Below, piece by piece: positions 18,229-32,793 of a stretch of DNA of 46,215 bases. This DNA comes from Candidatus Muproteobacteria bacterium RBG_16_65_34 (GTDB lineage Bacteria > Pseudomonadota > Gammaproteobacteria > Acidiferrobacterales > Sulfurifustaceae), in assembly GCA_001785115.1 (NCBI GenBank), contig MFSU01000057.1, forward strand, positions 2,930 through 49,144, read 5' to 3'. The translations under genes and the position numbers were made by a program. A model generated the notes under the pieces. That model was not told the DNA's origin, searched no databases, and saw only the letters and a program-made list of their open reading frames with translations. The number at the start of each line of letters is the position of its first letter. The stretch's first letter is position 1.

Positions 18229-18540
18229 TCACTTCAGCCGCATGTCATTCTTGACGGACGTCACGCCGCCGACGCCGCGCGCAATCTCGACTGCCTTGTC
18301 CATGTCGGCCCGAGACCTCACGAAGCCGCTCAATTGCACTACGCCCTTGAAGGTTTCGACGTTGATTTCGGCGACTTTCAGCGAAGGCTCGTTGAAGATC
18401 GCCGCTTTCACTTTAGTCGTGATGACGGAATCGTCGACGTACTCCCCCGTTCCCTCCTTCTGCGGCGTGGACGCGCAACCCAGCATGGACACCAGCAGGA
18501 CGGCGAGGAAAAAGGCGGAAAAATGCTTGTGTTGTTGCAT
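18229..18540 (-). CDS. BON-domain lipoprotein
   Basis: The 103-residue exported lipoprotein has lipobox LGCA (VSMLGCASTPQ). It carries one BON domain: DDSVITTKVKAAIFNEPSLK, VAEINVETFKGVVQLSGFV, then MDKAVEIARGVGGVTSVKND. BON domains bind phospholipid or bridge envelope layers (OsmY, DolP). ATG 18540 is chosen because GGAGAA lies 10 bases upstream; an in-frame ATG at 18555 has none. It is part of the leftward group after csbD. A paralogue lies at 30529-30918. Confidence 0.9.
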   Translation of the reverse strand: MQQHKHFSAFFLAVLLVSMLGCASTPQKEGTGEYVDDSVITTKVKAAIFNEPSLKVAEINVETFKGVVQLSGFVRSRADMDKAVEIARGVGGVTSVKNDMRLK

Positions 18541-18608
18541 GGCTGAATTCTCCATAAGAACGCGAAACCAAACTCCGTTGACCTAGATGCCTCTGAAGGC
18601 TGTGATCC

Positions 18609-18833
18609 TTACCGCCTCGAGAGGTCCCGCCAGTTGCGGTTGCGACTCATGAAATCCTCGATTTGGCGGTCGGCTTCCTGTTTCGAGATGCCGCGCCGCT
18701 CCTGGATCCTGCCGGCGAGCCGATCGCGCGTGCCGGCGGCCACCGCGTGCGGATCATCCGTGAGCGTGCCCCACTGTTCCTTCACCTTCCCGCTGAACTG
18801 CTTGCAGATGCCGTGAAAACGATCCCGGTTCAT
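18609..18833 (-). CDS. CsbD family stress protein
   Basis: The 74-residue soluble, highly charged protein begins MNRDRFHGICKQFSGKVKEQ. The family continues with WGTLTDDPHAVAAGTRDRLA and GRIQERRGISKQEADRQIED. CsbD proteins are strongly induced by envelope, osmotic or stationary-phase stress; the molecular role is unknown. It is the first gene of the leftward group (csbD, BON, BON remnant, PA2779). A Crp-type site with a -10 hexamer lies about 40-85 bases upstream. Confidence 0.93.
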   Translation of the reverse strand: MNRDRFHGICKQFSGKVKEQWGTLTDDPHAVAAGTRDRLAGRIQERRGISKQEADRQIEDFMSRNRNWRDLSRR

Positions 18834-18874: not shown

Positions 18875-18917
18875 ATTGTGTTCCCTCTGAAATCTGCGTT
18901 CTGTTCGTTGGCGTACA
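18875..18917 (-). promoter_or_regulatory. Crp-like operator/promoter A (csbD group)
   Basis: The palindrome TGTTCG-TTGG-CGTACA (18902-18917; reads TGTACGCCAACGAACA leftward) is followed leftward by CACAAT (18880-18875) starting 37 bases from the palindrome's first base. If CACAAT is the -10, transcription starts near 18868 and the palindrome centre is at -41.5. The 16-bp TGT-N10-ACA layout equals that of Crp sites. The gene at 19020 diverges from the same region, so the site could serve both. Confidence 0.55.
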
Positions 18918-19019
18918 TACGGCGCATGACTTTTGAACTAGGCTCGCATGCGCCGCGGGGCTGCAAGAGGTCGCGGCGATACGGTCATCTCCTCAGAGGC
19001 TCGAAACGATCGGTCCAGC

Positions 19020-19754
19020 ATGCACGCACCGCACACTCCAAAGCAGAACCATCTTCTCGCCGCACTGCCGGCAGCGGACTACGAGCGCCTGCTGCCCCAT
19101 CTGGAACAAACTCCATTGGAGCTCGGCTGGGCGCTCTACGAATCGGGCGGTGAGCAGGGCCATGTGTATTTCCCCACCACCAGCATCGTGTCCCTGCTCT
19201 GCATCATGCAGGACGGATCCTCGGCGGAGATCGCAGTCGTAGGCAACGAGGGCCTGGTCGGCATCGCCCTGTTCATGGGCGGCGAAAGCACCACGGGCCG
19301 CGCGGTGGTGCAGAGCGCGGGCTACGGCTATCGGCTCAGAGCAAGCGTGCTGAAAACCGAATTCGGCCAGGGCGGGGCGCTGCAGCATCTGCTGCTGCGC
19401 TACACGCAGGCGCTGATCACGCAGATGGCGCAGACCGCGGTGTGCAACCGGCGCCATTCGGTGGAGCAGCAGCTGTGCCGCTGGCTGCTCTTGAGCCTGG
19501 ACCGGCTGTCCTCGATCGAGCTGACCATGACCCAGGAGCTGATTGCCAACATGCTGGGCGTGCGCCGCGAGGGCGTGACCGAGGCTGCCGGCCACCTGCA
19601 GGCGGCGGGGTTGATCCATTACAGCCGCGGCAAGATCACCGTGCTGGACCGTCCGAAGCTGGAAGCACGGGTCTGCGAGTGTTATGCCGTGGTCAAACGG
19701 GAATCCGATCGCTTGCTTTCCCGCGAGACTGCGATCGTTGACCCGCTTTCGTGA
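19020..19754 (+). CDS. Crp/Fnr-like transcriptional regulator (paralogue 1)
   Basis: The 244-residue regulator has a cyclic-nucleotide-binding-type beta-roll (LELGWALYESGGEQGHVYFP; SAEIAVVGNEGLVGIALFMG), a dimerisation helix (RYTQALITQMAQTAVCNRRH) and a winged HTH (ELTMTQELIANMLGVRREGV). The phosphate cassette of cAMP-binding members (FGE...RS) is replaced by NEG...GRAVVQ, so a different ligand or none is likely. Recognition-helix residues RREGV keep the Arg-Glu pair used by Crp. ATG 19020 gives the same N-terminus as the paralogues (PKQNHLLAALP). It overlaps the next Crp-like gene by four bases (GTGA). Confidence 0.9.
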   Translation: MHAPHTPKQNHLLAALPAADYERLLPHLEQTPLELGWALYESGGEQGHVYFPTTSIVSLLCIMQDGSSAEIAVVGNEGLVGIALFMGGESTTGRAVVQSAGYGYRLRASVLKTEFGQGGALQHLLLRYTQALITQMAQTAVCNRRHSVEQQLCRWLLLSLDRLSSIELTMTQELIANMLGVRREGVTEAAGHLQAAGLIHYSRGKITVLDRPKLEARVCECYAVVKRESDRLLSRETAIVDPLS

Positions 19755-20608
19755 TCGAGACCGTGCTCAATCCTCTCCTCGTGCCGCCTGTCGGGCCTCC
19801 GACGACGCAATCGAACCGGGAGAGGGCAGGGCAAGTCGCGCGCCGAGCATCAATTGAGAACAGCCGGCTCGCCGCCGTCCCTCGCAAGGAGTATCGGCGT
19901 CTGCTCGCCGGGCTCGAACCGGTCACTTTGACCTTCGGCGAGGTGCTCTACGAGCCAGGGGAGACGATTCGCCATGTCTACTTTCCCGGTTCCTCCCTGG
20001 TGTCGTTGCTGACGCTGGTGGACGGCCACCTGACCCTGGAAACCGGCCTGATCGGCCGCGAGGGCATGGTCGGCATTCCTCTGGTGCTGGGACACAATGT
20101 GTCGTCGGTGCGCGCCCTGGTGCAAGGGACCGGGACGGCCATGCGGATGGCGGCGGCGCGCTTCAGCAAGGAATTCCGACTCAGCCTGGCGTTGCAGCAA
20201 GAGCTGTACCGCTACACCCATACATTGATGGCCCAGATCGCGCAAACCGCGGCGTGCAATCGCTTTCACGTGGTCGAGATGCGCCTCGCCCGCTGGCTGC
20301 TGATGACCCACGACCGCGTAAAGTCGGATCAATTCCACATGACGCATGAATTCCTCGGGCACATGCTGGGGGTGCGGCGGGTCGGCGTCACCAAGGCCGC
20401 CCATGCGCTGCAGCAGCGCAAGCTGATCGGTTACAGCCGCGGCGACATCACCGTCCTCGACCGCAGAGGCCTCGAAGCAGCGGCGTGCCAATGCTACGAC
20501 GTCGTCAAGGACATGCACGACGGCGCGCCGGCCGGGCATGCAGTGCGCAAGATGCGGATTTCCGCATGCCTCACCGCTCAAATCCGCTCTGTACGCCGGC
20601 ACACATAA
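19751..20608 (+). CDS. Crp/Fnr-like transcriptional regulator (paralogue 2)
   Basis: The 285-residue regulator starts at a GTG overlapping the stop of paralogue 1, so translation is coupled. It has the same layout: beta-roll (TLTFGEVLYEPGETIRHVYF, GLIGREGMVGIPLVLG), dimer helix (RYTHTLMAQIAQTAACNRFH) and HTH (HMTHEFLGHMLGVRRVGVTK). It differs from the other three by about 35 extra N-terminal residues and a basic C-terminal tail. RRVGV replaces the RREGV/I of the others, so DNA specificity may differ. Two regulators made from one message could form heterodimers; that is inference. Confidence 0.88.
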   Translation: MIETVLNPLLVPPVGPPTTQSNRERAGQVARRASIENSRLAAVPRKEYRRLLAGLEPVTLTFGEVLYEPGETIRHVYFPGSSLVSLLTLVDGHLTLETGLIGREGMVGIPLVLGHNVSSVRALVQGTGTAMRMAAARFSKEFRLSLALQQELYRYTHTLMAQIAQTAACNRFHVVEMRLARWLLMTHDRVKSDQFHMTHEFLGHMLGVRRVGVTKAAHALQQRKLIGYSRGDITVLDRRGLEAAACQCYDVVKDMHDGAPAGHAVRKMRISACLTAQIRSVRRHT

Positions 20609-20639
20609 ACCGCGATATTCGCGCGCGTTACCACTGGCG

Positions 20640-20735
20640 CTACTTGCCTTTGCCGACCGGATTGTCGATCAGGCCGCCGACTGCGGTACCGCCGACCGTA
20701 CTGAACGTGCTGCCGCCGATCGCGATGGTGGTCAT
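20640..20735 (-). pseudogene. Glycine-zipper protein, C-terminal remnant
   Basis: Reading leftward, 31 codons give TIAIGGSTFSTVGGTAVGGL followed by IDNPVGKGK and TAG. The G..GG.AVGGLI.N..GKG pattern is that of glycine-zipper/OsmB-like envelope proteins. No signal sequence remains, so this is most likely a 5'-truncated fragment. Confidence 0.4.
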
Positions 20736-20807
20736 CCTGCTCAGACCGATCAGCGGGCGAAATCCTGTGTGACGATTTCGCCGGGCGGGCCTGTTGGCCG
20801 GAGGCGG

Positions 20808-21551
20808 TTATCGGACGACAGCAGCAATGCCCTGGCGGTAGCGCACATCGGACAGCAGGCGGTTCAATTCCTTCTTGACCACGGCGTAGCACTCGCACGC
20901 GCGGATCTCCAGTCCGGACCGATCAAGCACGGTAATGTGGCCACGGCGGTAGCGAATAAAACCGGCGTGCTGCAATTTCCCGGCGGCCTCCGTAATGCCT
21001 TCCCGGCGCACGCCGAGCATGCTGGCGACCAACTCCTGTGTCATGACCAACTCACGCGAGGGGATGCGATCGAGGGTCAACAATAGCCAGCGGCACATCT
21101 GCTGCTCCACCGAATGGTGCCGGTTGCAGGCCGCGGTCTGTGCCAGTTGTGTGATCAGCGCCTGGGTGTAGCGCAGCAACAAACGCTGCATCAAGCCGGC
21201 GCGATTGAATTCCTGCTTCAGCAAGCGGCGCTCCAGCCGGTAAGCGTGGCCCGCGGTCTGTACCACGGCCGAGCTTGGCGTGGTATCCCCTCCCATGAAC
21301 AGCGAAATACCGACTACGCCTTCATTGCCCACCCCCGCGGCTTCGGCCGATGCGCCAGACTCCATGACATAGTGCAGCGACACGATGGCGGTGGTGGGGA
21401 AATAGCCGTGCTGCAACTGTCCGCCGGGTTCGTAGAGGATTTCACCGAGCGGCATCGGGACCAGTTCCAGATGCGCGGCCAAGCGCTCGAATTCCGCCGT
21501 GGGTAGGGCGGCGAGAAGATGGTTTTGATTCGGACTATGGGGTGATGACAT
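20808..21551 (-). CDS. Crp/Fnr-like transcriptional regulator (paralogue 3)
   Basis: The 247-residue regulator is collinear with paralogue 1: PNQNHLLAALPTAEFERL, beta-roll GEILYEPGGQLQHGYFPTTA, NEGVVGISLFMGGDTT, dimer helix RYTQALITQLAQTAACNRHH and HTH LVMTQELVASMLGVRREGIT. The degenerate nucleotide pocket is as in paralogue 1. It lies 24 bases downstream of the response regulator, reading the same way, so it is probably the output of the kinase-regulator pair upstream or at least co-expressed with it. Confidence 0.9.
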   Translation of the reverse strand: MSSPHSPNQNHLLAALPTAEFERLAAHLELVPMPLGEILYEPGGQLQHGYFPTTAIVSLHYVMESGASAEAAGVGNEGVVGISLFMGGDTTPSSAVVQTAGHAYRLERRLLKQEFNRAGLMQRLLLRYTQALITQLAQTAACNRHHSVEQQMCRWLLLTLDRIPSRELVMTQELVASMLGVRREGITEAAGKLQHAGFIRYRRGHITVLDRSGLEIRACECYAVVKKELNRLLSDVRYRQGIAAVVR

Positions 21552-21575
21552 CGCTGACCGTCAGGATCCGGCATT

Positions 21576-22400
21576 CTATTTTTTTGCAGTGGTTTCCACG
21601 CCGATTCCGCGGTAACCGATGAAGCGGGACGACTGGTTAAACATCGGCTCCCCGCTCACCCGGAACTGTTGCTGCGAGCCATCGGCATTGACGCGGCTGA
21701 AGGCGAAATCCAGGAATGGCTGCCGGGCTGCAATCTTTGCCTGAAGCACTTCCCGCTCCGCCTCATTCCAGCCAGTCATCCCGCCATCGCTTGTTTCACC
21801 CACAAAGGCGTCGACCCGGATTCCGAGCATCTCCAGGACCGGGCCGGATACCTTGGTGAAGCTCCCGTTCTCGTCCTGTTCCCAATACCAGTCGGAGGCC
21901 AGCTCGGTGAGGCTGCGATAGCGGGCTTCGCTCTCGCGCAGCTCGGCGGTCCGTTCCTGCACCGTCTGCTCCAGCACCTTGTTGTAATCCTCGAGTTTTT
22001 TGTACAGCAGCCGCACTTCCAGCATGTTGTGGATGCGCGTCTTGACTTCGACCAGATCGAACGGCTTGCTGATGAAATCCTTTGCACCGGCTTGCAGCGC
22101 GCGCAGCTTGTGGCCGGGCTGGGCGGTGAGCACGATGACCGGAAGGTAGCCGTCCGCGTCGTTTGTCTTGAGGCCTGCCATCACCTCGAATCCATCCATG
22201 CCGGGCATCTGCAGGTCGAGCAGGATCAGGTCGTAGCGGTTTTTGCGATGCAGCGCGCAGACCTCCTGCGGATTCATGGTCGAGGCAACGCAGGCGTAGC
22301 CGGCCTCACTCAGCAATTGCTCGAGCAGACTGACATTGGACTGCTGATCGTCAACAATCAGGATGCTGGCGTTAAGAATGCCGGGTGTACTGACCATCAT
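21576..22400 (-). CDS. Response regulator with C-terminal PAS domain
   Basis: The 274-residue protein has a receiver domain (residues about 12-128) with acidic pair VDD, phospho-acceptor Asp near 62 (LILLDLQMPGMDG), Thr (VLTAQ) and Lys 112 (FISKPF). A coiled coil follows (LYKKLEDYNKVLEQTVQERT), then a PAS domain (about 150-265; ELASDWYWEQDENGSFTKVS). There is no DNA-binding or enzymatic output domain, so it works through protein contacts. The start overlaps the stop of the kinase gene (ATGATG/TGA), giving translational coupling. Confidence 0.92.
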   Translation of the reverse strand: MMVSTPGILNASILIVDDQQSNVSLLEQLLSEAGYACVASTMNPQEVCALHRKNRYDLILLDLQMPGMDGFEVMAGLKTNDADGYLPVIVLTAQPGHKLRALQAGAKDFISKPFDLVEVKTRIHNMLEVRLLYKKLEDYNKVLEQTVQERTAELRESEARYRSLTELASDWYWEQDENGSFTKVSGPVLEMLGIRVDAFVGETSDGGMTGWNEAEREVLQAKIAARQPFLDFAFSRVNADGSQQQFRVSGEPMFNQSSRFIGYRGIGVETTAKK

Positions 22401-24103
22401 GCCTTTTCCTCTTTATTTGCGCGGGCCGATTGCGGTTTCGCAAATTTCAGTGCCACGTCCAGCGTATCCATGAACTGGTTGACCTTGATCGGTTTGGTGA
22501 GATAACGGAAGAATCCCGCCTCCAGGCCTTTCTCGATATCGCGGGGTATGGCATTGGCACTGAGCGCAACCACCGGGATGTGCGCTGTTGCCGGATCTGC
22601 GCGCAGGATTTTCAGCGCTTGGATACCGCTGATGCCAGGCAAATTGATGTCCATCAGGATGACATCCGGGCGGGCGGCGCGCGCAATCTCGATGCCGCGA
22701 TCGCCGTCCGCCGCACTCAGCAAGCGGATATCGGGCCGGCGCGCGATGAGATCCTGGACCAGCATCAGATTAGCGGGGTTGTCCTCGACATAGAGCAGGG
22801 TGCGCAACTGCGCGTCGGCTTGAACTTGCGCCTGGGCGACAGCCGTGGGTTCGGCTGTGGCAGGTTGTGGTTCAGCCGTCAGGTTCAGTTCGATCCAGAA
22901 CACACTGCCCACACCGACAGTGCTTTTCACGCCTATGACGCCCCCCATCAATTCGACCAGCCGCTTGCTCATCATCAGGCCGATGCCGGTGCCTTCCTCG
23001 ATGCCGGCCTCTTTTCCGAGACGATTGAACGGCTGGAAAAGCTGCGTCAGCTTATCCGGAGTCAAGCCTTCGCCGGTGTCCTTGACACTGATGCGAATGC
23101 GTTCCGCGGTGCTCGTGGTGCAATCCACGACGACCGTTCCGCCCACCTTGTTGTATTTGACCGCGTTGGAAAGAAGGTTGATCAGAACCTGCTTTACCCG
23201 TGTCCGGTCGGCTTTGACAAAGTACCGGATTTCGAACTGGGGAAAGGTCACGCGGATGCCGCGCTTTTGCGCCTGCGGTTCGATCATGTCCTGGCATTCG
23301 TGCATGACTTCGGCCAGCGATATCGGTTCCGGCGACAGCGACAGCTTCCCGGACTCGATCAGCGCGAGATCGAGGATTTCGTTGATCAGTTCCAGCAGGT
23401 ACCACCCCGCCTGGAGAATCTGATCGATGCTTCGCTTCTGGGAGGGCGTTGGCAGCGGCGAACCGGATTCCATGAGTTGGGCAAAACCGAGGATTGCACT
23501 GAGCGGCGTGCGCAGCTCGTGGCTCATGCTGGACAGGAAATCCGATTTCGCGAGGTTGGCTTTTTCCGCAACGGCCATGGCCTTGTGCAGTTCCAATTCG
23601 ACCTGCTTGCGCACGGAATTGTCGGCGCCGATCAGCAGGTATCCGAGGATATCGCCATAATCATCGCGCAGCGCCGTGATTGACACGATTGCCGGAAAGC
23701 GGCTGCCGTCCTTGCGGATATAGGTCAATTCATAGCTGTCCTCGATCCCGCGCGACGCTTTGAAAGCCAACGCCTCGAAGCCCGGAGAAATGGGGGTTGC
23801 GAGTTCGAGGCTCAGTGCCTGGGCGCGCGCCATCACTTCCTGTGGATCATGGATGTCGCTGGGGTTGATCTTGTTCACGACTTCGGCGGCCAGATAGCCC
23901 AGCATGCGCTCGGCGCCGACATTGAATAATTGGATGATGCCTTTCTCGTCGGTGGCGATAATCGAGAAATTGGCGCTGGTGAGGATCGCGTTCTGCAAGG
24001 CCCCGGTTTTAAGCAAGGCCTCCTGGCGTCGGACCTCGGTGATGCCTTCCGCCGTGCCAGCGGCGGGGTTGAGAATGGCGGGATCGCGGGTTTTTTTGGA
24101 CAT
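22397..24103 (-). CDS. PAS-containing hybrid sensor histidine kinase/response regulator
   Basis: The 568-residue protein has no membrane helix. A PAS domain covers about residues 35-165 (SANFSIIATDEKGIIQLFNV). HisKA follows with phospho-His in FLSSMSHELRTPLSAILGFA, then the HATPase (N box QVLINLLSNAVKYN, G boxes VKDTGEGL and EEGTGIGLMMSKRLVE). An Ala/Gln/Pro linker leads to a C-terminal receiver (YVEDNPANLMLVQDL; Asp in VILMDINLPGISG). This is a cytoplasmic sensor. It is first in an apparent operon with the PAS response regulator and Crp-like paralogue 3. The signal sensed is unknown. Confidence 0.94.
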   Translation of the reverse strand: MSKKTRDPAILNPAAGTAEGITEVRRQEALLKTGALQNAILTSANFSIIATDEKGIIQLFNVGAERMLGYLAAEVVNKINPSDIHDPQEVMARAQALSLELATPISPGFEALAFKASRGIEDSYELTYIRKDGSRFPAIVSITALRDDYGDILGYLLIGADNSVRKQVELELHKAMAVAEKANLAKSDFLSSMSHELRTPLSAILGFAQLMESGSPLPTPSQKRSIDQILQAGWYLLELINEILDLALIESGKLSLSPEPISLAEVMHECQDMIEPQAQKRGIRVTFPQFEIRYFVKADRTRVKQVLINLLSNAVKYNKVGGTVVVDCTTSTAERIRISVKDTGEGLTPDKLTQLFQPFNRLGKEAGIEEGTGIGLMMSKRLVELMGGVIGVKSTVGVGSVFWIELNLTAEPQPATAEPTAVAQAQVQADAQLRTLLYVEDNPANLMLVQDLIARRPDIRLLSAADGDRGIEIARAARPDVILMDINLPGISGIQALKILRADPATAHIPVVALSANAIPRDIEKGLEAGFFRYLTKPIKVNQFMDTLDVALKFAKPQSARANKEEKA

Positions 24104-24349
24104 GGCCGGCGTTAGTTAAAGCGCGAATTAGTCTGGCGGATCGCGTGGCCGAAGGTGCGGGCAGCACCTCACCTATTTATACACCCATCCACCCATCCCG
24201 CACACAAAAAAATGCATGCTTTTGCTTGCAGGCGTCGGGGGGCGGGGCGTGGGGGGTAAGTTGAGTCCGTGGATGAATTTTGAGCAGATACTGACCCGAC
24301 CGGCAAATAGTGCACGTTGTTTTCTCCCTCTCCCTCCGGGGAGCGGGCG

Positions 24350-24550
24350 CTGAAGGGCCAGGATACCCTGGCGACGCTCGAACCGGTGAGCGAGATCGCC
24401 GCGCGGGCGAAAGCCACCTGGGCGCGGCTGATCCAGTCCATGAAGCCGATCCGCTCGAATGTCCGAAGCGCCGAAGCGTAAAGAGCGGACCGATGGGTGT
24501 GATTGCCCTGATCGACGATCCGGGAGTCATCCGGCGCATCCTTGAGCAGC
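24350..24550 (+). pseudogene. IS91-type transposase remnant, frameshifted
   Basis: One frame reads GQDTLATLEPVSEIAARAKA then TWARLIQ. After a frame change, the next continues VHEADPLECPK...SGPMGVIALIDDPGVIRRIL. Together these match the C-terminal cysteine-rich end of IS91-like transposases (ATWARLI..VYEADPLECPKCKGPM.VIALIDDP.VIRRILEH). The second Cys of the CPKC motif is lost. The rest of the 811-base space between the kinase gene and 24916 holds a poly-G/A-rich stretch (24200-24270) with no gene, and promoter B near 24752. Confidence 0.7.
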
Positions 24551-24751
24551 GTGTTGGCGATCGGCTCCCGGATCATAGAGTGACAAGAAAGCTCGTCTCG
24601 AGAGCGCCTTTTTCCTTGGCACGGAAATGATAACCGTCTGTTTTGTATGGCGGCCCGCGCCACAGAGCCGCTCGCCTGCGGCGGTGCTGCTGCCCAGCGG
24701 CGTTCGTCGTGGTCCGCTGTATGCATACGAGCGCACAAATCGTCCCGCGTA

Positions 24752-24794
24752 TGTACGCCACCGCACAGAAGCTCTTGCGGTGGACGGTAATACT
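24752..24794 (+). promoter_or_regulatory. Crp-like operator/promoter B (Ig-like/DUF3494 lipoprotein)
   Basis: The palindrome TGTACG-CCAC-CGCACA (24752-24767) is followed by AATACT (24789-24794) starting 37 bases from its first base, exactly as in sites A and C. The predicted start near 24801 gives a 115-base leader to the ATG at 24916. The bases just after the palindrome (GAAGCTCTTGCGG) also resemble site C (GAACATCTTGCGA). Confidence 0.6.
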
Positions 24795-24915
24795 GGAAAC
24801 TCTGAAGCTCCGCGCGAAAGCGATTGTGCAGAACGTCAGCGTACGCGCCGACAATGGGTCGGTCGATTACATCGATGGTTTTCTGGATCAGATCAAAGCC
24901 AAAGAGGGGAAGCAA

Positions 24916-26859
24916 ATGAACAACAGATTCGAACGCGTTACTAAGCCACTGATGTGGTCCATGGCATTACTGCTGGTCGCTTTTGTGGCGGGATGTAGTG
25001 GTAGAGGAAACGATCCAATCTTGGGCGGAATCGGAGTCGGTGCTGGACTCGCGCCCACGGTGACTTCCACGGTCCCCGCGAACGCCGCCACGGGTGTGCA
25101 GATCAATAGGAGAATCACCGCAACATTCAGTGAGTCGACGATGGACGCTGCAACGATCACTGCGGCATCCTTTAAGGTGACCGGGCCGCTGGCAACTGCC
25201 GTACCGGGAGCAGTCATCTACGCCGGACAAACGGCGGTCTTTACACCAACCAGCGTTCTTGCGGCCAGTAGCTTATATACCGCAACGGTCACCACGGTGG
25301 TGAAAAACCAGGCAGGCATTGCAATGCTGGCAAATCACGTCTGGAGCTTTACAACTGGCCTGACGTCTGACACCACCGCACCCAAATTGATTTCCGTTGG
25401 TGCTGCTGATGGTGCGACCGACCTGCCCATCAACAGAGACGCCACTGCAACCTTCAGTGAGCCGATGCTTCCTTCAACGCTCGTCTCTCCAGCAACCAAT
25501 TTTACGGTGTGTGCAGCTGGAACTGGCGTCGCACCCGTAGCTTGTGCATCTCCCAACATAACAGGCGTAGTGACCTACCTTGGCAACACGGCAACTTTTA
25601 ACCCGGACGTCGATCTCTCACCCAGTACCTGGTATACCTTAAATATCACGACGGGAGCCATGGACCTGACTGGTGTTAATGCATTGGTACCCGGACTTAT
25701 CCCGAATCCATGGAGCTGGAAGACCGCCGCCACGCCAGAAAGCACCGCACCCACCGTGACCTTCACCAACCCTGCTGATCTTGCAACGCTTGTCCCTGTT
25801 GACAGAACAATCAATGCAACCTTCAGTGAGGCAATGAGTCAGGCAACGATGGTCACCGCGAACTTTACGGTGCATGAGACAGCAACGCCCCTAAATGTCG
25901 TAGCAGGAACGGTCGCCTACGATGCGGCGAACAACATTGCGAGCTTTTTACCACAGACCAGTCTGACGCCCGACACGGACTATACGGTTACGGTTAGCAA
26001 CGGGGCCAAAGACCTGGCAGGCAATGCACTGGTTGTGCCGGCAGTGGGTGGGCTACCGAAACCGAATCCATGGACATTTAGAACAGCACCCGCATCCGTT
26101 CCGCCGGTGGCTCTCGCAATTAACCTTGGAAGCGCCGCTTCTTACGGGATTGCAGCGCGGGCTGGAATGACCTCAAGCGGTGTTACCGTGGTTAATGGGG
26201 ATATAGCGTTGTATCCACTTGCGACCTGTACGGATTCCACTTCCACCGTTGGTGGCGGTGCGGCCGGAAACTGCACAGGTTTTACGGACTGGGCTGATAG
26301 CGCGGGAATGACCGTGAACGGGTCAATATACTGGGCCGGCGGACCCGACGACCTTATCGCGCAACAGGTCACGAACGACTTGAATACCGCGTGGATTCAG
26401 GGCAAGAACAAGATAGATACTTTCGCTGCAGATTCCCTCGGCGGTCAACTAGGCGGGGTAGGGCCAGTCGGGAAAACCATCGTGCCTGGCGTATATACCG
26501 AAAATGTTCTTAACCTGGCGACCGGTTGGGTTGCCACGTTCGACGCCAACGATGATCCGAATGCTGTCTTCATCATTAGGGTAACTACCTCTTTTAGCGA
26601 CTCGGGCATTCTTGCAACTCCGAGCGAGATTAAACTGGCAAGAGGCGCCCAAGCCAAAAACATCTGGTTTGTGATCGGTAGTGCGGCAAGCATCGGAACG
26701 GGAACAATCTGGAATGGAAACATACTGGCCGGTGGGACTATCACGATCTCAGGCGGCTCAACGGTGACGGGCAGGTTGTTGGCGGGTGCGGCCGGAGCAG
26801 GCGCGTTTACAATGACCACCACCGCTCCCGCTGCTATCACCATTAACGTACCTGAGTAA
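24916..26859 (+). CDS. Lipoprotein with three Ig-like (Big_5) domains and a DUF3494 ice-binding-fold domain
   Basis: The 647-residue surface lipoprotein has signal/lipobox LLLVAFVAGC (Cys about residue 24). Three SbsA-type Ig-like repeats follow, each with P-A-N/D-ATGV...ITATFSE and TLTP/YT.TVT...KD..G motifs, at about 45-150, 155-275 and 280-395. The C-terminal DUF3494 domain is at about 405-645 (INLGSAASYGIAARAGMTSS, TIVPGVYTENVLNLATGW, AVFIIRVTTSFSDSG, QAKNIWFVIGSAASIGTGTI). The fold suggests an adhesin or ice-binding display on a stalk. The N-terminus MNNRFERVTKPL resembles that of the gene at 29503. A frame start at 24643 is rejected because it runs through the promoter and hides the signal peptide. 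GC content is visibly lower than in the core genes. Confidence 0.9.
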   Translation: MNNRFERVTKPLMWSMALLLVAFVAGCSGRGNDPILGGIGVGAGLAPTVTSTVPANAATGVQINRRITATFSESTMDAATITAASFKVTGPLATAVPGAVIYAGQTAVFTPTSVLAASSLYTATVTTVVKNQAGIAMLANHVWSFTTGLTSDTTAPKLISVGAADGATDLPINRDATATFSEPMLPSTLVSPATNFTVCAAGTGVAPVACASPNITGVVTYLGNTATFNPDVDLSPSTWYTLNITTGAMDLTGVNALVPGLIPNPWSWKTAATPESTAPTVTFTNPADLATLVPVDRTINATFSEAMSQATMVTANFTVHETATPLNVVAGTVAYDAANNIASFLPQTSLTPDTDYTVTVSNGAKDLAGNALVVPAVGGLPKPNPWTFRTAPASVPPVALAINLGSAASYGIAARAGMTSSGVTVVNGDIALYPLATCTDSTSTVGGGAAGNCTGFTDWADSAGMTVNGSIYWAGGPDDLIAQQVTNDLNTAWIQGKNKIDTFAADSLGGQLGGVGPVGKTIVPGVYTENVLNLATGWVATFDANDDPNAVFIIRVTTSFSDSGILATPSEIKLARGAQAKNIWFVIGSAASIGTGTIWNGNILAGGTITISGGSTVTGRLLAGAAGAGAFTMTTTAPAAITINVPE

Positions 26860-27004
26860 GACATAAAGTATTCGGTGTGAACGCAGGACAAGTTACATCA
26901 GGAAATACCGGAAGCTCCCCCCTTCAAGGGGGAGCCAACCGCAAGCTAGTGATTTTAACTTGGGTGTACTCGATGAGTTGCCCCAGGTTATTTTGGAGAA
27001 GAAC

Positions 27005-28486
27005 ATGAAGAGAATAGCTAAAGCCGTAGGCACGCTGGGTCTTGTGGGATTCGCTGCGATGAGCGGCCAATTTGCAGTGGCGGATGATTCAGGCTGGGTC
27101 GGTGGGTTGAGCGTCGGCCAATCGACAGCGAATATCGACGACGCGGGGATCGCCGCCCAGCTGCTGGGATCAGGCCTTACCACGACCTCGATGACCGATG
27201 ACCACCGCGACACCGGCTATAAGGTTTTTGGCGGGTACCGGTTCAACAGGTATTTTGCTCTCGAAGCCGGCTATTTCAATTTGGGACAGTTCGGTTTTAC
27301 GTCGACAACGACCCCGGCGGGAACCTTGACCGGGGAGATCAAGCTCCAGGGTTTGAATCTCGACGCCGTCGGCATTCTGCCCCTTGCCGAAAGCTTTTCT
27401 GTGTTTGGCCGGGTCGGATGGAACTACGCTGAAGCCAGAGACAATTTCACCAACACCGGAGCCGTCGCCGTGCCGACGGATCCCAACCCCAGCAAGCGCG
27501 ATACGAACTACAAGCTCGGCCTGGGGCTTCAGTACAATTTCACCGAATCTCTCGGAATGCGCGCCGAGGTGGAACGCTACCGGATCAACGATGCCGTCGG
27601 CAACAGAGGCGACATCGATCTTGTCTCGGTCGGCCTGGTCGTTCGGTTCGGCGGAGACAAGCCGGCCCCCGCACCGAGAGCGGCGACGCCGCCCCCACGC
27701 GTTGCGGCAGCACCGGTGCGGGTCATCGTGCCGGTCCGGGCGCAGAAGCAGTACTGCAGCGTACTCGACCTCGCGTACGAGATTGACCGGGACGAGATTC
27801 AGCGCGATGACAAGGAGAAGCTCGGTGTGGTGGCAACCTTCCTGAAGAAATACCCCGACACCACGGCGTTGATCGAGGGTCACACCGATAATGTCGGGAC
27901 GGCTGAGATTAATATGCAACTGTCGCGGCGCCGGGCGCAGAGCGTGGTGAGCTTCCTGGTGCAAGACTACAAGATCGATCCCTCCCGGCTGATGGCAGTG
28001 GGGTACGGAGAAGAGCGCCCGATCGCGGACAATCGCACCGAGGAAGGGAAGCGGGCGAACCGGCGTGTCAATGCTGTCATCGCGTGCGCGTCGGATTTCG
28101 AAGGGCTCAAGGTGGTCGCCGCCAGGACCACCATGGCCGTGGAAATCGAGTTCGACCCGTACAAGCACGAGATTAAACCGGAGTACCGTGACGAACTTCG
28201 CAAGGTGGCGAATTTCATGAAAGCGAATCCCTCCGTCACCGCCACGGTGGAAGGACACGCCGGCAAATACCTCGGCGCCAAGGAGATAACCCCCGAGGTG
28301 TCGATGGAAGTCTCCCAGCAACGCGCTACGGCCGTGGTGAATTACCTGGTGGATAACCTGGGTGTCGCTCGTTCGAAACTTTCCACAGCGGCATTCGGCC
28401 AGACCCGTCGTGTCGACTACGGCACCACCCTGGAGGGGCAGCAGGAAAACCGCAGGATCAACATCCTCTACAACTACGTCAAATAG
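27005..28486 (+). CDS. OmpA-family outer membrane protein with two C-terminal OmpA domains
   Basis: The 493-residue protein has a signal peptide ending SGQFAVA. An eight-strand beta-barrel covers about residues 25-215 (GYKVFGGYRFNRYFALEAGY; final strand LVSVGLVVRFG). A Pro/Ala linker follows, then two OmpA_C domains in tandem. The first (about 250-365) has LIEGHTDNVGTAEINMQLSR and KRANRRVNAVI with the peptidoglycan-binding Asp and Arg. The second (about 375-493) has VEGHAGKYLGAKEI and GQQENRRINI, lacking the TDN Asp. It anchors outer membrane to peptidoglycan. ATG 27005 follows GGAGAAGAAC. A terminator lies just downstream. Confidence 0.92.
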   Translation: MKRIAKAVGTLGLVGFAAMSGQFAVADDSGWVGGLSVGQSTANIDDAGIAAQLLGSGLTTTSMTDDHRDTGYKVFGGYRFNRYFALEAGYFNLGQFGFTSTTTPAGTLTGEIKLQGLNLDAVGILPLAESFSVFGRVGWNYAEARDNFTNTGAVAVPTDPNPSKRDTNYKLGLGLQYNFTESLGMRAEVERYRINDAVGNRGDIDLVSVGLVVRFGGDKPAPAPRAATPPPRVAAAPVRVIVPVRAQKQYCSVLDLAYEIDRDEIQRDDKEKLGVVATFLKKYPDTTALIEGHTDNVGTAEINMQLSRRRAQSVVSFLVQDYKIDPSRLMAVGYGEERPIADNRTEEGKRANRRVNAVIACASDFEGLKVVAARTTMAVEIEFDPYKHEIKPEYRDELRKVANFMKANPSVTATVEGHAGKYLGAKEITPEVSMEVSQQRATAVVNYLVDNLGVARSKLSTAAFGQTRRVDYGTTLEGQQENRRINILYNYVK

Positions 28487-28496
28487 CGGCAGAACC

Positions 28497-28522
28497 GGGC
28501 TTCGGCGCTTTTGCCGAAGCCC
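28497..28522 (+). terminator. Terminator after ompA-like gene
   Basis: GGGCTTCGGC-GCTTTT-GCCGAAGCCC is a perfect 10-bp stem 11 bases after the stop. Confidence 0.8.
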
Positions 28523-28909
28523 TCTGTTCGCCGTTCGCCGGATACGCCGTCATCCGTCGTACATTCGGCAAATGCCACGCAAGTCGCCCCAGTTTAGTGA
28601 CCAGAAAGGCGGTATGCGATCGGGTGGAAGATTTGAAACCCGTTGGCGAGTTGCTCGGCGAGTAGCGTCGCGTTTCGGTCTAATAAAGCAACTCTGGCTC
28701 TTTGGCCGCCTGTACTCGGTGCGACCTGCCGCGTTAATCATTGTGGATGGAAAACGGAGCCGGAGCGATGAGAGGTTGATCACCCGGCCTGATTCGCCTC
28801 ACGATATGAAATCATGCGCTGCCGGTCTTCATCCCAGAGGCTGGACTGGAAGCACTCCACGATTTCCCGCGGCGCCAGCGATGTGGTCACCGGCGACTGA
28901 AGGTCGGGG
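28523..28909. other. Gene-free region between ompA-like gene and DUF3494 remnant
   Basis: I see no gene, promoter of note or repeat in these 387 bases. The last 100 bases may be decayed coding sequence of the DUF3494 gene that follows (GDVVTG-like residues in broken frames). Confidence 0.4.
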
Positions 28910-29298
28910 ATGGCCGCCATGGCCTCGGGCAGGAAGCCACCGGCAAATCCGATTGCGGTCGGAGCAGGATTCACTATCACCCTCGACGCCCAGGGCAACG
29001 CGGATGCGGTCTTCATCTTCCAGATGGACAGCGCCATCACGACCGGAACCAACAGCATAGTTGTTCTGGCCAACGGCGCGCAGGCCAAGAACGTGCGGTG
29101 GAAGGCCGGCAGTGCAGCGACTCTTGGCGTGAGTTCTATCTTCAAGGGAACCGTAATTGCCAATGGAGCGGCAGTCCAGGTGTTTGGCCGCACACCTTGG
29201 AGCGGACGCCGGTGGAAGGCAGACTGTTTTCATCCGCTGCCGCGGCTAACGTGGATGCGTTTGCAACTGTTACTGTGCCCATGAAGCATTGGTTGTGA
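28910..29298 (+). pseudogene. DUF3494 ice-binding-fold protein, truncated and frameshifted
   Basis: The first frame encodes FTITLDAQGNADAVFIFQMD, TNSIVVLANGAQAKNVRWKA and SSIFKGTVIANGAAVQVFG, the second half of a DUF3494 domain. Near 29190-29205 the frame shifts, and the domain end VEGRLFSSAAAANVDAFATV followed by TVPMKHWL continues in another frame to the stop at 29298. The N-terminal half and signal peptide are missing. A terminator follows, showing this was once a real gene end. Confidence 0.8.
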
Positions 29299-29310
29299 AA
29301 CCAGGACAAG

Positions 29311-29334
29311 AAGGCCGTCGCGAGACGGCCTTTT
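29311..29334 (+). terminator. Terminator after DUF3494 remnant
   Basis: AAGGCCGTC-GCGA-GACGGCCTTTT is a strong stem with a GCGA loop and T-run, similar in design to the terminator at 14257-14280. Confidence 0.9.
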
Positions 29335-29347
29335 CCTTTCCGGGTTA

Positions 29348-29390
29348 TGTACGTAAACGCACAGAACATCTTGCGACGGAGGGGGATAAT
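29348..29390 (+). promoter_or_regulatory. Crp-like operator/promoter C (DUF3494-BON-sll1863-lapA group)
   Basis: The palindrome TGTACG-TAAA-CGCACA (29348-29363) is followed by GATAAT (29385-29390), a good -10, starting 37 bases from its first base. The predicted start is near 29397, palindrome centre -41.5, leader about 106 bases. No proper -35 hexamer is present, as expected for an activator-dependent class II promoter. Confidence 0.65.
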
Positions 29391-29502
29391 CGCCTTACGA
29401 TGCTCGGCGCCAAAACCTACGGTGCCGTACGCAGGGATCCGCGGCCACAATGAATCAGCCGCGCACCGAAGCCTTTCGGGGTCCCCTGATCAGGAGAAAC
29501 AC

Positions 29503-30345
29503 ATGAACAGATTCGAAAGCTTTTTCAAACCACTTAACACGTTGCTCATGGCGTTGCTGGCGGCCGCTTTCGTAGCTGGATGCGGCGGTGGTGGCGGTGG
29601 CGGCTCAGGCTCAACGGGAGTCTGCACGGCATCGGCCACGGACTGTGTGTCTCTTGGTGCGGCCGGAGACCTTGGAGCGGCCGGCGGTTATGCGATTCTG
29701 GCAAAAGATGGGGTCTCAACCGTTCCAAGCTCCGTAGTGATTGGAAATGTTGGATTGAGTCCAGCCGCCAGGACTTTCTTAACTGGATGGTCAGAAACAG
29801 CCGCACCGGACGCCTCGGATACCTATTCGACATCCGCTCAAGTGGTCGCACCTTTCAAGCTATACGCAGCCGACTATGCGCCTCCTACTCCCACTAATCT
29901 CACTACGGCCGTACTCAGCATGCAAGCTGCGTACACCGACGCCGCTGGACGGACGGCTACATCTGCTGCGACTACCAACGTGGGTGCCGGAACGCTTACC
30001 AGTTTAACCCTCGCCCCTGGCGTCTACGAATGGGGTTCCAATGTGACGATACCAACGGATCTTACTCTCAATGGCAGCGCAACCGATGTCTGGATCTTCA
30101 AGGTGGCGGGAACTCTCGACATGGCCGCTGCCAAGAACGTTATCCTAGCCGGTGGCGCACTGCCCCAGAACATTTTCTGGCAGGTCTCCGATGTTGTGAC
30201 CATTGGAGCGAACACGCACTTTGAGGGAATTATACTGGGTCAGACAGCGATCGCGTTTGGGAATCTCGCATCGATCAACGGCAGGCTGCTGGCGCAGACT
30301 GCCGTCACTCTTGATGCGACGACGGTTACACAGCCAGCCCCGTAA
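29503..30345 (+). CDS. DUF3494 ice-binding-fold lipoprotein
   Basis: The 280-residue protein has lipobox AFVAGC followed by a Gly run, so it is probably outer-membrane anchored. The DUF3494 domain fills residues about 48-278: SLGAAGDLGAAGGYAILAKD, SVVIGNVGLSPAA, LTLAPGVYEWGSNVTIPTDL, DVWIFKVAGTLDM, NIFWQVSDVVTIGANTHFEG, INGRLLAQTAVTLDATTV. All expected blocks are present. ATG 29503 follows CAGGAGA. The start MNRFESFFKPL resembles the gene at 24916. It is the first gene of a probable operon with BON, sll1863-type and LapA genes. Confidence 0.9.
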   Translation: MNRFESFFKPLNTLLMALLAAAFVAGCGGGGGGGSGSTGVCTASATDCVSLGAAGDLGAAGGYAILAKDGVSTVPSSVVIGNVGLSPAARTFLTGWSETAAPDASDTYSTSAQVVAPFKLYAADYAPPTPTNLTTAVLSMQAAYTDAAGRTATSAATTNVGAGTLTSLTLAPGVYEWGSNVTIPTDLTLNGSATDVWIFKVAGTLDMAAAKNVILAGGALPQNIFWQVSDVVTIGANTHFEGIILGQTAIAFGNLASINGRLLAQTAVTLDATTVTQPAP

Positions 30346-30389
30346 GGACGCAAGGAGCGCCATGGCTGGAACTCAGGAGACGGCAATCA

Positions 30390-30488
30390 ATGGATTCGTT
30401 CCTGTTTTCCGGCGTCTTCGATCTGCCGTGGTGGGGTTACGGCGTGGTGGCGCTGATGTTGGGGAGAACTCAGGGTCGGATCCCGTGA
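30390..30488 (+). pseudogene. Acyl-CoA desaturase, N-terminal remnant
   Basis: ATG 30390 opens MDSFLFSGVFDLPWWGYGVV then ALMLG before divergent residues and TGA at 30486. This matches the first transmembrane segment of proteobacterial acyl-CoA/fatty acid desaturases (FDLPWWGY..V.LALTH). The histidine-box catalytic region is absent, so only a stub of about 25 residues remains. Confidence 0.55.
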
Positions 30489-30528
30489 CGAAACCTGTGT
30501 ATGCGAAGGAAATGGAAGGAGAGCCGAA

Positions 30529-30918
30529 ATGAACGTTTTAGAGAATTTCAAATTAATCGGTATTTCGATGCTATTCGTTGTTGGGCTTGCCGCATGCGAC
30601 AAGCCGGGGCCGGCGGAGACCGCAGGTAAAAAGATAGACCAGACGGCCGATAAAGCCCGTGAAAAACTGGGCGAGCAAGGCGCGAAAACCGGTGTGGCCA
30701 TCGACGATGCTGCGATTACGGCCAAGGTCAAAGCCGCCATTTTTGCCGAGCCCGGTCTCAAGACGCTGCAAATCAGTGTCGACACCGTAAATGGCGTGGT
30801 GACATTAAGCGGATCGGTCGATTCGCGGTCGAGTCGCGACAGGGCCAAAGCCCTGGCGGGCGCAGTGGCTGGCGTAAAAGAGGTTGAAAACCGGCTGGCG
30901 CTAAAGTCGACCCGATGA
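30529..30918 (+). CDS. BON-domain lipoprotein (second copy)
   Basis: The 129-residue lipoprotein has lipobox VGLAAC. A charged helical linker (GKKIDQTADKAREKLGEQGA) is followed by one BON domain (DDAAITAKVKAAIFAEPGLK, LQISVDTVNGVVTLSGSVDS, AGVKEVENRLAL). It is a longer paralogue of the BON protein at 18229. GGAAGGAGA precedes the ATG. It lies in the rightward group between the DUF3494 gene and an sll1863-type gene; probably an envelope-stress protein. Confidence 0.9.
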   Translation: MNVLENFKLIGISMLFVVGLAACDKPGPAETAGKKIDQTADKAREKLGEQGAKTGVAIDDAAITAKVKAAIFAEPGLKTLQISVDTVNGVVTLSGSVDSRSSRDRAKALAGAVAGVKEVENRLALKSTR

Positions 30919-30953
30919 GCTTGAGTTGTCGCTAACCATTAAAGGAGTAAATC

Positions 30954-31241
30954 ATGGAAATTCAAGACGCATATAAACAAAAAATGGCGGCGCAACTGAA
31001 GGAATGGAGCGCCCAAATTAATTTATGGGAAGCCAAGGTGGAGAACGCAGGGGCTGACATGAAGGTCAAGCGTGCCGAGGCACTTCATGAGTTGCGTGCC
31101 AAACAGCGTGCGGCGTCTGAAAAAATGAAGGAACTGGAGAAGGCCAGTGGCGAGGCATGGGAACAGGTCAAAGCAACTGCTGACAAAATCTGGGAGGACC
31201 TTAAGGCCGGCGTAGCTGCCGCCCATTCCAAATTCAAGTGA
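30954..31241 (+). CDS. sll1863-family stress response protein (coiled coil)
   Basis: The 95-residue protein is almost entirely alpha-helical and charged: AYKQKMAAQLKEWSAQINLW, EAKVENAGADMKVKRAEALH, then EKMKELEKASGEAWEQVKAT and KIWEDLKAGVAAAHSKFK. It has no signal peptide. The W.A.I..WEAK...A.AD.K pattern is typical of the sll1863-type stress family, whose mechanism is unknown. AAAGGAG lies just before the ATG. It is between the BON and LapA genes. Confidence 0.8.
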   Translation: MEIQDAYKQKMAAQLKEWSAQINLWEAKVENAGADMKVKRAEALHELRAKQRAASEKMKELEKASGEAWEQVKATADKIWEDLKAGVAAAHSKFK

Positions 31242-31318
31242 AGTATTGGCGGGTGGACGCTGCCCAGACCGTCTGCAACCTCAGAAGCTTTTAACAGTCC
31301 GTTTGAGAGGCTTGAAAG

Positions 31319-31543
31319 ATGAATTTAAAATTAACACTGATACTTATTCTCTCAAGCCTGGCGGTGATATTTATCGCTCAAAATGTCGCTGTCGTTGAGA
31401 TTGGCTTTCTATTGTGGAGAGCCTCAATGTCGAGTGCGTTGTTGATATTTTTCACATTGACGATTGGATTTCTTTTAGGTTGGTTCTTACATAGTTACCT
31501 TTTGCATCGGAAATCCAAGGGTGAGTCGGTACATTTACGTTGA
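31319..31543 (+). CDS. LapA-domain membrane protein
   Basis: The 74-residue protein has two transmembrane helices (LTLILILSSLAVIFIAQNVA and SALLIFFTLTIGFLLGWFLH) and a short basic cytoplasmic tail. This is the LapA/YciS-like pattern (IAQN...V.I.FLLW....S.ALL...T...GFLLGW). LapA in E. coli takes part in LPS assembly control with LapB, but stand-alone LapA-domain proteins like this are unassigned. AT-rich codons differ from the core genes. It is the last gene of the rightward group. Confidence 0.85.
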   Translation: MNLKLTLILILSSLAVIFIAQNVAVVEIGFLLWRASMSSALLIFFTLTIGFLLGWFLHSYLLHRKSKGESVHLR

Positions 31544-31552
31544 GCTAAACCC

Positions 31553-31589
31553 AATACTGTTTGCCCGGCAACCTGGCAAAAACAGTATT
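31553..31589. terminator. Hairpin between convergent lapA-type and Crp-like genes
   Basis: AATACTGTTTGCC pairs with GGCAAAAACAGTATT (two unpaired bases) around a short CGGCAACCT loop. It ends 10 bases from the Crp-like gene's stop and could terminate both strands. Confidence 0.65.
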
Positions 31590-31598
31590 TGCATGTCG

Positions 31599-32453
31599 CT
31601 ACGATATTGCACCATGAGCGTACTCGGTAGTGCTTGAGAAGAAGTACCGGGCGTTGACATGTCGGCGTGCTTCATTAGGTAACAGCCGTGTAGTCGTGTT
31701 CGCCCGCCGCGCTGGAAGCACGGTCAGAGTTGCTGTGGGGGGGGGCAGCAAGCGGTCGTACTCCTTTTTTACCACCGCGTAGCACTCGCACACCCGCCTT
31801 TCCAGTTTGGGACGATCCACTACAGTGATGTGGCCGCGTCTGTAACCAATCACTCCGTCCTTTTGCAGCTTGCCGACAGCCTCGGTCACGCCCTCGCGGC
31901 GCACCCCCAGCATGTTGGCAATCAGCTCCTGGGTCATGGTCAGTTCGTTCGAGGACAGCCGGTCCAGGCTCAAGAGCAGCCAGCGGCACAGCTGCTGCTC
32001 GACCGCATGGTGGCGGTTGCACACCGCGGTCTGCGCCATCTGCGTGTAGCGCAGCAGCAGACGCTGCAGGTCCCCGCCCTGGCTGAATTCGGCCTTCAGG
32101 ACGCTTGCTCTGAGCCGGTAGCCGTAGCCCGCGCTCTGCACCACCGCGCGGCTCGGGGTGGTTTCGCCGCCCATGAACAGCGCGATGCCCAGCACGCCCT
32201 CGTTGCCCACGACCGCGATCTCCGCCGAGGATCCGTCCTCCATGACGTAGAGCAGGGACACGATGCTCGTGGTGGGGAAATACACATATCCCTGCTGACC
32301 GCCGGATTCGTAGAGAGCCTTGCCGAGTTCCAACGGAACCAGCTCCAGATGGGGCAGCAGGCGCTCGCAGTCCGCGTCCGGCAGTGCGGCGAGAAGATGG
32401 TTCTGCCGGGGCGATCGCCGTGCGGACAAAGATGGGTTCTTAGCCATCGGCAT
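31599..32453 (-). CDS. Crp/Fnr-like transcriptional regulator (paralogue 4) with shortened dimer helix
   Basis: The 284-residue regulator is very close to paralogue 1: RQNHLLAALPDADCERLLPH, YVYFPTTSIVSLLYVMEDGS, NEGVLGIALFMGGETT and HTH ELTMTQELIANMLGVRREGV. The dimerisation helix reads LLLRYTQMAQTAVCNRHH. Five residues (ALITQ) present in paralogues 1 and 3 are missing, an in-frame 15-base deletion between short CGCAG repeats. The C-terminal about 40 residues (after YDRLL) are unrelated to the others. Function may be altered. A perfect TGTGCG-N4-CGCACA site lies 53 bases upstream. Confidence 0.88.
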   Translation of the reverse strand: MPMAKNPSLSARRSPRQNHLLAALPDADCERLLPHLELVPLELGKALYESGGQQGYVYFPTTSIVSLLYVMEDGSSAEIAVVGNEGVLGIALFMGGETTPSRAVVQSAGYGYRLRASVLKAEFSQGGDLQRLLLRYTQMAQTAVCNRHHAVEQQLCRWLLLSLDRLSSNELTMTQELIANMLGVRREGVTEAVGKLQKDGVIGYRRGHITVVDRPKLERRVCECYAVVKKEYDRLLPPPTATLTVLPARRANTTTRLLPNEARRHVNARYFFSSTTEYAHGAIS

Positions 32454-32793
32454 GGATCATGTCGAATAGTGTTTCGATTTCGCATCGAGCAGATGGTACT
32501 TCTTGTGTGCGATAGCGCACATAGTGCTTTCGGGACAAGCAGGCTGCAGGAATGATTTGCACCACCACACCCTTAGAAACGCCGGTTGAATGTCCGCGGG
32601 ATAACGGATCAGAATCGCCAGTTCTTGATTTGACCGGCCGTATGCCGTTGACGCAGGCACTCCGGGTGCGCTCAGTCGTGCGCGTTCGAGGAGGAGGATG
32701 AGGCTGCCTCGCCGCTCGCCGCGTTTCTTGGCGCATGGCACGATGCGGCGAGCCGAGCGCAGGGCACGCGGGGGAGGCCCCGCCGGGACACTG
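32454..32793. other. Intergenic region upstream of paralogue 4
   Basis: These 340 bases contain operator D (32506-32521) and nothing else I can recognise. A GGCGGGG-CCT-CCCCGC-type stem near 32770-32786 could end the leftward permease gene. Confidence 0.35.
32506..32521 (-). promoter_or_regulatory. Crp-like operator D
   Basis: TGTGCG-ATAG-CGCACA has perfect 6-bp arms and belongs to the same TGTRCG-N4-CGYACA class as sites A-C. It is 53 bases from the start of Crp-like paralogue 4. No convincing -10 hexamer lies at the class II distance, so it may mediate autoregulation instead. Confidence 0.55.

Follow-up and report, generated by a model that had tools for sequence, protein, structure and literature searches.

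A putative self-linked class II regulon of an uncharacterised Crp/Fnr subfamily in beta- and gammaproteobacteria

Introduction

The Escherichia coli regulator CRP recognises the operator TGTGA-N6-TCACA, and its residues R180 and E181 contact that operator. GlxR and Mycobacterium tuberculosis CRP are actinobacterial regulators that bind cyclic AMP (cAMP), while BerB/Bcam1349 is described as a cyclic di-GMP-responsive CRP/FNR protein of Burkholderia cenocepacia (PMC5552954, PMC3584217). Searching the text of these two papers for operator terms gave no palindromic operator consensus for BerB/Bcam1349. The present analysis concerns a 46,215-nucleotide (nt) stretch of DNA, called the window below, from Candidatus Muproteobacteria bacterium RBG_16_65_34 (assembly GCA_001785115.1, contig MFSU01000057.1, positions 2,930-49,144). 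The initial annotation, made from the letters of the window, proposed that four palindromes and four Crp-like genes form a local Crp-type regulon. The palindromes are probably genuine parts of a gene-control circuit that is widespread, occurs in many beta- and gammaproteobacteria and seems not to have been described before. Very probably this circuit is a self-linked regulon whose class II promoters are activated by an uncharacterised Crp/Fnr subfamily, one that binds T(A/C)TGTRCG-N4-CGYACA(G/T)A.

Materials and methods

All of the evidence is computational. The source genome is incomplete (2.03 Mb, 109 contigs, 75% complete). Relatives of the window Crp proteins were used to collect 80 loci (1.35 Mb), mostly from beta- and gammaproteobacteria, with genes called by a simple in-house script. 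The motif matrix was built solely from external sites in other genomes and the null was a set of 20 Markov-shuffled windows; a site upstream of a gene was counted at 18 bits or more. A -10-like hexamer was scored as NANNNT, and the 76 external sites were read both ways, giving 152 orientations. The 43-base class II promoter pattern was TGTNCG-N4-CGNACAGA-N20-ANNNT, with the reversed pattern as control. A class sample of 229 genomes was drawn across the class irrespective of Crp. Protein families were assigned by Pfam and NCBIfam, the Crp alignment held 173 relatives, and the fold was examined with an AlphaFold2 model and structure matching. Gene families in a complete genome of the same family (G004) were read from N-terminal sequence.

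Results

Four operators in the window

The four palindromes lie where the initial annotation had placed them.

18902-18917, minus strand: operator 1, TGTACGCCAACGAACA-GAA read towards csbD; 27.0 bits with the external matrix; predicted start ~18868.
24752-24767, plus strand: operator 2, TGTACGCCACCGCACA-GAA; -10-like AATACT at 24789-24794; predicted start ~24801; 28.1 bits.
29348-29363, plus strand: operator 3, TGTACGTAAACGCACA-GAA; -10-like GATAAT at 29385-29390; predicted start ~29397; 26.0 bits.
32506-32521, minus strand: operator 4, TGTGCGCTATCGCACA, lying 58 bp before the start of crp4; 28.1 bits.

The consensus TGTRCG-N4-CGYACA claimed for all four holds for operators 2, 3 and 4; the right arm of operator 1 is CGAACA instead of CGYACA, a single arm position off consensus. 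As annotated, the hexamers CACAAT, AATACT and GATAAT at operators 1 to 3 begin exactly 37 bases from the first base of the palindrome (+37), GAA follows each palindrome, and operator 4 precedes a Crp-like gene; no -10-like hexamer was found at +37 from operator 4. Towards csbD, CACAAT occupies 18880-18875 on the minus strand and the class II pattern is matched exactly. A -35 element was sought at the window operators and none was found, as the annotation had also reported, and an ordinary sigma-70 promoter with a -35 was ruled out on that ground. In the class II arrangement the operator is centred at -41.5 and a -10 is present but a -35 is not required; here the centre is predicted from the position of the hexamer.

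Several elements did not appear in the initial annotation. In the plus direction TAGGCT (18939-18944) lies at +37 from operator 1 towards crp1, giving the class II pattern with one mismatch, and operator 1 is therefore read as bidirectional. The others are two weaker sites, the first together with the gene that follows it (13349-14236).

13119-13134, plus strand: degenerate operator, TGTGGGTCAGCGCACA-GT, with TATAGA at 13156-13161 (+37); 17.4 bits; ~215 bases 5' of a further DUF3494 gene.
20590-20605, unstranded: weaker palindrome, TGTACGCCGGCACACA, overlapping the 3' end of crp2; 20.2 bits, close to the 20.7-bit maximum of the null.

The palindrome at 20590 lacks promoter geometry and is possibly a relic or a chance occurrence. 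A short minus-strand remnant (20644-20740) resembling the end of a glycine-zipper protein adjoins it.

With the external matrix operators 1-4 score 26-28 bits, against a maximum of 20.7 in the 20 shuffled windows. Exact TGTRCG-N4-CGYACA occurs three times in the 2.03-Mb genome, every time within the window, and the class II pattern with at most one mismatch has four matches in the source genome, again all in the window, against 0 for the control; one of the four is operator 1 read towards crp1. It is thus very improbable that the operators are chance palindromes in a GC-rich window. When two mismatches are allowed such palindromes are not rare there (13 in the window against 8 expected), but neither the scores of operators 1-4 nor the confinement of every exact copy to the window fits chance, and the spacing and context recur across genomes.

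The motif and its promoter spacing in related loci

In the 80 related loci, palindromes of the form TGT-N-xy-N4-yx-N-ACA have CG as the xy pair 76 times and every other pair at most twice. The external sites yield the 20-bp consensus quoted in the Introduction, and 63 of the 76 are intergenic although the DNA is 88% coding (p ~3e-45). NANNNT starts at +37 in 55 of the 152 orientations, compared with a background of ~7 (p ~4e-31). The -41.5 (class II) geometry, which the annotation had described for three sites, is therefore general. GA directly follows the palindrome in 41 of the 55 orientations that have the +37 hexamer, and the annotated GAA can therefore be understood as an orientation mark of the activating face. 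The strict form TGTACG-N4-CGYACAGAA proved too narrow, finding only one further genome among 96 close relatives; allowing any base at position 4 recovered the family-wide signal.

Specificity and association with the Crp subfamily

In a set of 33 genomes the class II pattern has 81 matches, of which 3 fall in the window; the reversed control has 0. Across the class sample there are 42 matches against 2 for the control. The pattern is present in 16 of the 22 sampled genomes that carry the Crp subfamily but in only 7 of the 207 that do not (p ~1e-14). When the source genome is left aside, Crp-positive genomes contain 32 sites, of which 19 are at most 5 kb from a Crp gene and 25 at most 20 kb away. 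A chance origin is ruled out by the CG enrichment in the 80 loci, the +37 spacing and the 81 matches against 0.

These data also bear on whether the motif is read by something other than the Crp proteins, be it an alternative sigma factor or an unrelated dimeric regulator, with the crp genes being merely targets. The 7 of 207 genomes that have the pattern and no detected Crp relative would fit such a factor, as would the response regulator beside crp3, which shows that other regulators are present. However, the 16-bp TGT-N10-ACA frame is that of a Crp operator, a sigma site would lack the symmetry of the palindrome, the pattern and the Crp subfamily co-occur strongly, and the family scan found no DNA-binding domain in the response regulator. 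An outside reader of the motif is accordingly judged improbable, and recognition by the Crp proteins themselves, with activation upon binding, is most likely.

The Crp-like regulators

The four Crp-like paralogues and the two-component genes linked to one of them are as follows.

19020-19754, plus strand: crp1, Crp/Fnr-type regulator; HTH_Crp_2 1.4e-16; recognition helix VRREGVTEA; AlphaFold2 predicted local distance difference test (pLDDT) 93.7.
19751-20608, plus strand: crp2, divergent paralogue (E181V, R185K); HTH_Crp_2 2.7e-14.
20808-21551, minus strand: crp3, at the end of a kinase - response regulator - crp operon; HTH_Crp_2 1e-12.
21576-22400, minus strand: response regulator with a PAS domain; Response_reg 3.5e-28.
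22397-24103, minus strand: PAS-histidine kinase with a receiver domain; HATPase_c 5.1e-26.
31599-32447, minus strand: crp4, 80% identical to crp1; HTH_Crp_2 7.8e-16.

The Crp/Fnr C-terminal helix-turn-helix (HTH_Crp_2) scores above cut-off in all four proteins; cNMP_binding does so in crp3 and falls below cut-off in the other three. The AlphaFold2 model has the fold of GlxR, M. tuberculosis CRP and FNR, with the beta barrel and the long dimerisation helix, and the predicted fold is thus canonical Crp/Fnr. The recognition-helix core is identical in crp1, crp3 and crp4 except for V/I, and crp2 is more distant. Among the 173 relatives the equivalent of R180 is Arg in 169 and that of E181 is Glu in 115. 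The equivalent of R185 is mostly Glu, a replacement which may explain the changed inner arm of the operator. The cAMP-contact residues that mark CRP proper are not retained: E72 falls in a gap, R82 is mostly Thr and S83 mostly Pro.

Cys142, His146, Cys219 and Cys221 (crp1 numbering) are kept in 166-168 of the 173 relatives. To our knowledge neither CRP nor FNR has this set at the corresponding positions, and as a guess it is put forward as a candidate metal or redox site.

The crp1 and crp2 genes overlap by 4 nt (19751-19754), as do their counterparts in a related locus (L019, 10735-10738). Proteins of the crp2 type have Val at 181, and Lys is common at 185; of 30 genes of this type, 11 closely follow a crp gene of the E type. 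The overlap and the changed recognition helix of crp2 may hint at heterodimers. In crp4 five residues of the dimerisation helix (ALITQ) are missing that are present in the 172 other relatives; crp4 may be inactive or altered. The kinase - response regulator - crp gene order recurs in the same-family genome G004.

Target genes

The gene content given in the initial annotation, four Crp paralogues included, agrees with the Pfam and NCBIfam assignments. The predicted targets are listed by operator.

18609-18833, minus strand: csbD, first gene behind operator 1; CsbD 3.6e-14.
18229-18555, minus strand: BON-domain lipoprotein (OsmY-like); BON 6e-21.
17612-18016, minus strand: PA2779/DUF6627 family protein; PF20332 7.1e-37, NF033919.
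24918-26859, plus strand: lipoprotein with three Big_5 immunoglobulin-like domains and DUF3494, behind operator 2, its start picked from the signal peptide; Big_5 5.9e-57, Ice_binding 9.1e-26.
26960-28486, plus strand: OmpA-type outer-membrane protein, after the DUF3494 gene, in the same order as in a related locus (L138); OmpA 6.4e-41.
29503-30345, plus strand: DUF3494 (ice-binding-like) lipoprotein, behind operator 3; Ice_binding 2.6e-64.
30529-30918, plus strand: BON-domain lipoprotein; BON 2.8e-20.
30954-31241, plus strand: sll1863-family stress protein; NF052504 6.5e-28.
31319-31543, plus strand: LapA-domain protein; PF06305 4.1e-09.
13349-14236, plus strand: further DUF3494 protein, behind the degenerate operator; Ice_binding 9.4e-31.

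The PA2779 gene follows the BON gene after a 213-nt gap and is a putative member of the csbD-BON transcript. Two further features lie just 5' of operator 3. One is a DUF3494 gene remnant covering profile positions 115-180 only (28973-29170), and the other, immediately adjacent to the operator, is an inverted repeat with a T-rich tail, AAGGCCGTC-GCGA-GACGGCCTT (29311-29339). The repeat is probably the terminator of the upstream unit and is absent from the terminator-scan list.

Behind 70 sites, the 93 proteins encoded in the leading positions include receiver domains (9), DUF4398 (8), OmpA (6), BON (4) and CsbD (4), with two each of DUF3494, AsmA, crystallin, phospholipase D and fatty-acid desaturase. 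Since ~30 CsbD genes occur in the ~100,000 genes estimated for 25 genomes, ~0.03 CsbD would be expected by chance among the 93. Conversely, 11 of 30 csbD genes (21 genomes) have an upstream site, most of these with GA and a -10-like hexamer at +37. An upstream site was also seen in several cases for DUF3494 genes. Families that recur downstream are CsbD, BON, DUF4398/OmpA, DUF3494, sll1863, the kinase/response-regulator/crp operons and lipid genes.

The layout of the window is repeated in G004, where a BON-CsbD-PA2779 unit stands behind a site and further sites precede the kinase-regulator-crp operon, DUF3494 genes and polysaccharide-export genes. One radical-SAM-like and one AsmA-like gene adjoin these units, as in the window. 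In the same genome operators at L257 13888 and L256 4439 precede polysaccharide-export and chain-length genes near large synthetase-like open reading frames.

Sites before crp genes

The sites before crp genes are heterogeneous and often lack both GA and a -10 at +37. In the direction of crp, TA follows the palindrome in 32 of 67, and the -10-like hexamers are scattered: 11 stand at +37, others around +14 to +16 and around +23 to +25. Such features would suit a mixed circuit in which the Crp-like proteins bind the palindrome but repress at many sites, operator 4 and the crp-gene sites among them. At targets other than crp, however, most oriented sites have their -10 exactly at +37, in keeping with class II activation, and many sites on the crp side belong to a divergent activating site seen from its other face. 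Widespread repression is possible but rather doubtful, and activation at class II promoters is the preferred reading.

Discussion

The initial proposal of a local Crp-type regulon is supported by the over-representation of the motif, its intergenic placement, its co-occurrence with the Crp subfamily and its linkage to crp genes. In the proposed mechanism the operator would be recognised by the subfamily comprising crp1, crp3, crp4 and, more distantly, crp2. A Crp dimer on a palindrome centred at -41.5 would replace the -35 element, so that sigma-70-type promoters would be activated by a class II mechanism, with one or more of crp1, crp3 and crp4 acting as activator. The targets would be the csbD-BON(-PA2779), DUF3494/OmpA and DUF3494-BON-sll1863-lapA units and the further DUF3494 gene, and crp1 would itself be a target through the bidirectional operator 1. 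Operator 4 would confer autoregulation of crp4, of either sign; more generally the crp genes would regulate themselves, possibly by repression at some crp-side sites.

Several observations weigh against this regulon as proposed. The 33-genome set used for the pattern and the 25-genome set used for csbD were selected for carriage of Crp, which the class sample only partly corrects. The strict pattern is missing from six of the 22 Crp-positive genomes, and over half of the crp genes have no upstream site. Within the window no operator is found in the region upstream (24103-24750) of the kinase-regulator-crp3 operon, where homologous operons in three genomes (G004, G110 and G114) have one. The -10 of operator 1 (CACAAT) is weak. 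Operators 2 and 3 are not independent, because their promoters are homologous or paralogous to each other with 13 of 19 spacer bases identical. Lastly, PA2779 is weakly linked: the enrichment anticipated before the annotated target families was borne out for csbD, and BON, DUF3494 and sll1863 recur downstream of sites, but outside the source genome only about 1 of 10 PA2779 genes has a site. PA2779 as a general member of the regulon is unsupported beyond a few genomes and was rejected.

Given that its contact residues are replaced, cAMP is unlikely to be the signal. Two candidates are put forward: sensing of a metal or of redox state through the invariant Cys/His residues, or signalling by the kinase to which crp3 is linked. 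A broader picture is offered tentatively: in beta- and gammaproteobacteria a subfamily reading an operator code of its own, with a sensor formed by Cys142, His146, Cys219 and Cys221, might control a conserved regulon of envelope, matrix and desiccation-type genes, with linked paralogues, the crp1-crp2 pair included, acting on shared sites as homo- or heterodimers.

If correct, the proposed regulon would supply the operator, promoter architecture and set of targets for a large Crp/Fnr group named only generically in databases, and would offer a handle on genes of unclear role, namely CsbD, BON, DUF3494, DUF4398, PA2779 and sll1863. Because the promoter pattern is specific (81 matches against none), the regulon can be predicted in any genome and what its targets respond to could be tested in relatives available in culture, for example Undibacterium, Collimonas or Acidovorax.

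The initial annotation knew of no described regulon with this motif, and a literature search whose coverage was without most subscription journals likewise found no description of the operator or regulon. BerB/Bcam1349, compared by description only, is similar in being a proteobacterial Crp/Fnr regulator that acts on polysaccharide and biofilm genes. Among solved structures GlxR and M. tuberculosis CRP come nearest by fold, and they are also among the nearest by sequence profile, but identity is only 16-19%. FNR and DNR share the superfamily and overall fold, A. fischeri FNR being among the best structural matches (TM-score, the template modelling score, 0.74) and DNR being matched by sequence. 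The subfamily differs from them in its operator, in lacking the N-terminal cysteine cluster that would hold the iron-sulphur centre of FNR proper (the first cysteine of crp1, residue 61, is unconserved) and in having conserved Cys/His at the end of the C-helix and in the C-terminal helix. With E. coli CRP it shares the Crp fold, the winged-helix HTH, the 16-bp TGT-N10-ACA frame and the class II centre at -41.5 without a -35. It differs in its TGTRCG-N4-CGYACA operator, the 76 sites having CG inner arms where CRP proper has TGTGA-N6-TCACA, in the mostly Glu residue at R185, in the replaced E72/R82/S83 and in having several linked paralogues. Fold and helix-turn-helix place the subfamily within Crp/Fnr, while its residues and operator set it apart from both CRP proper and FNR proper.

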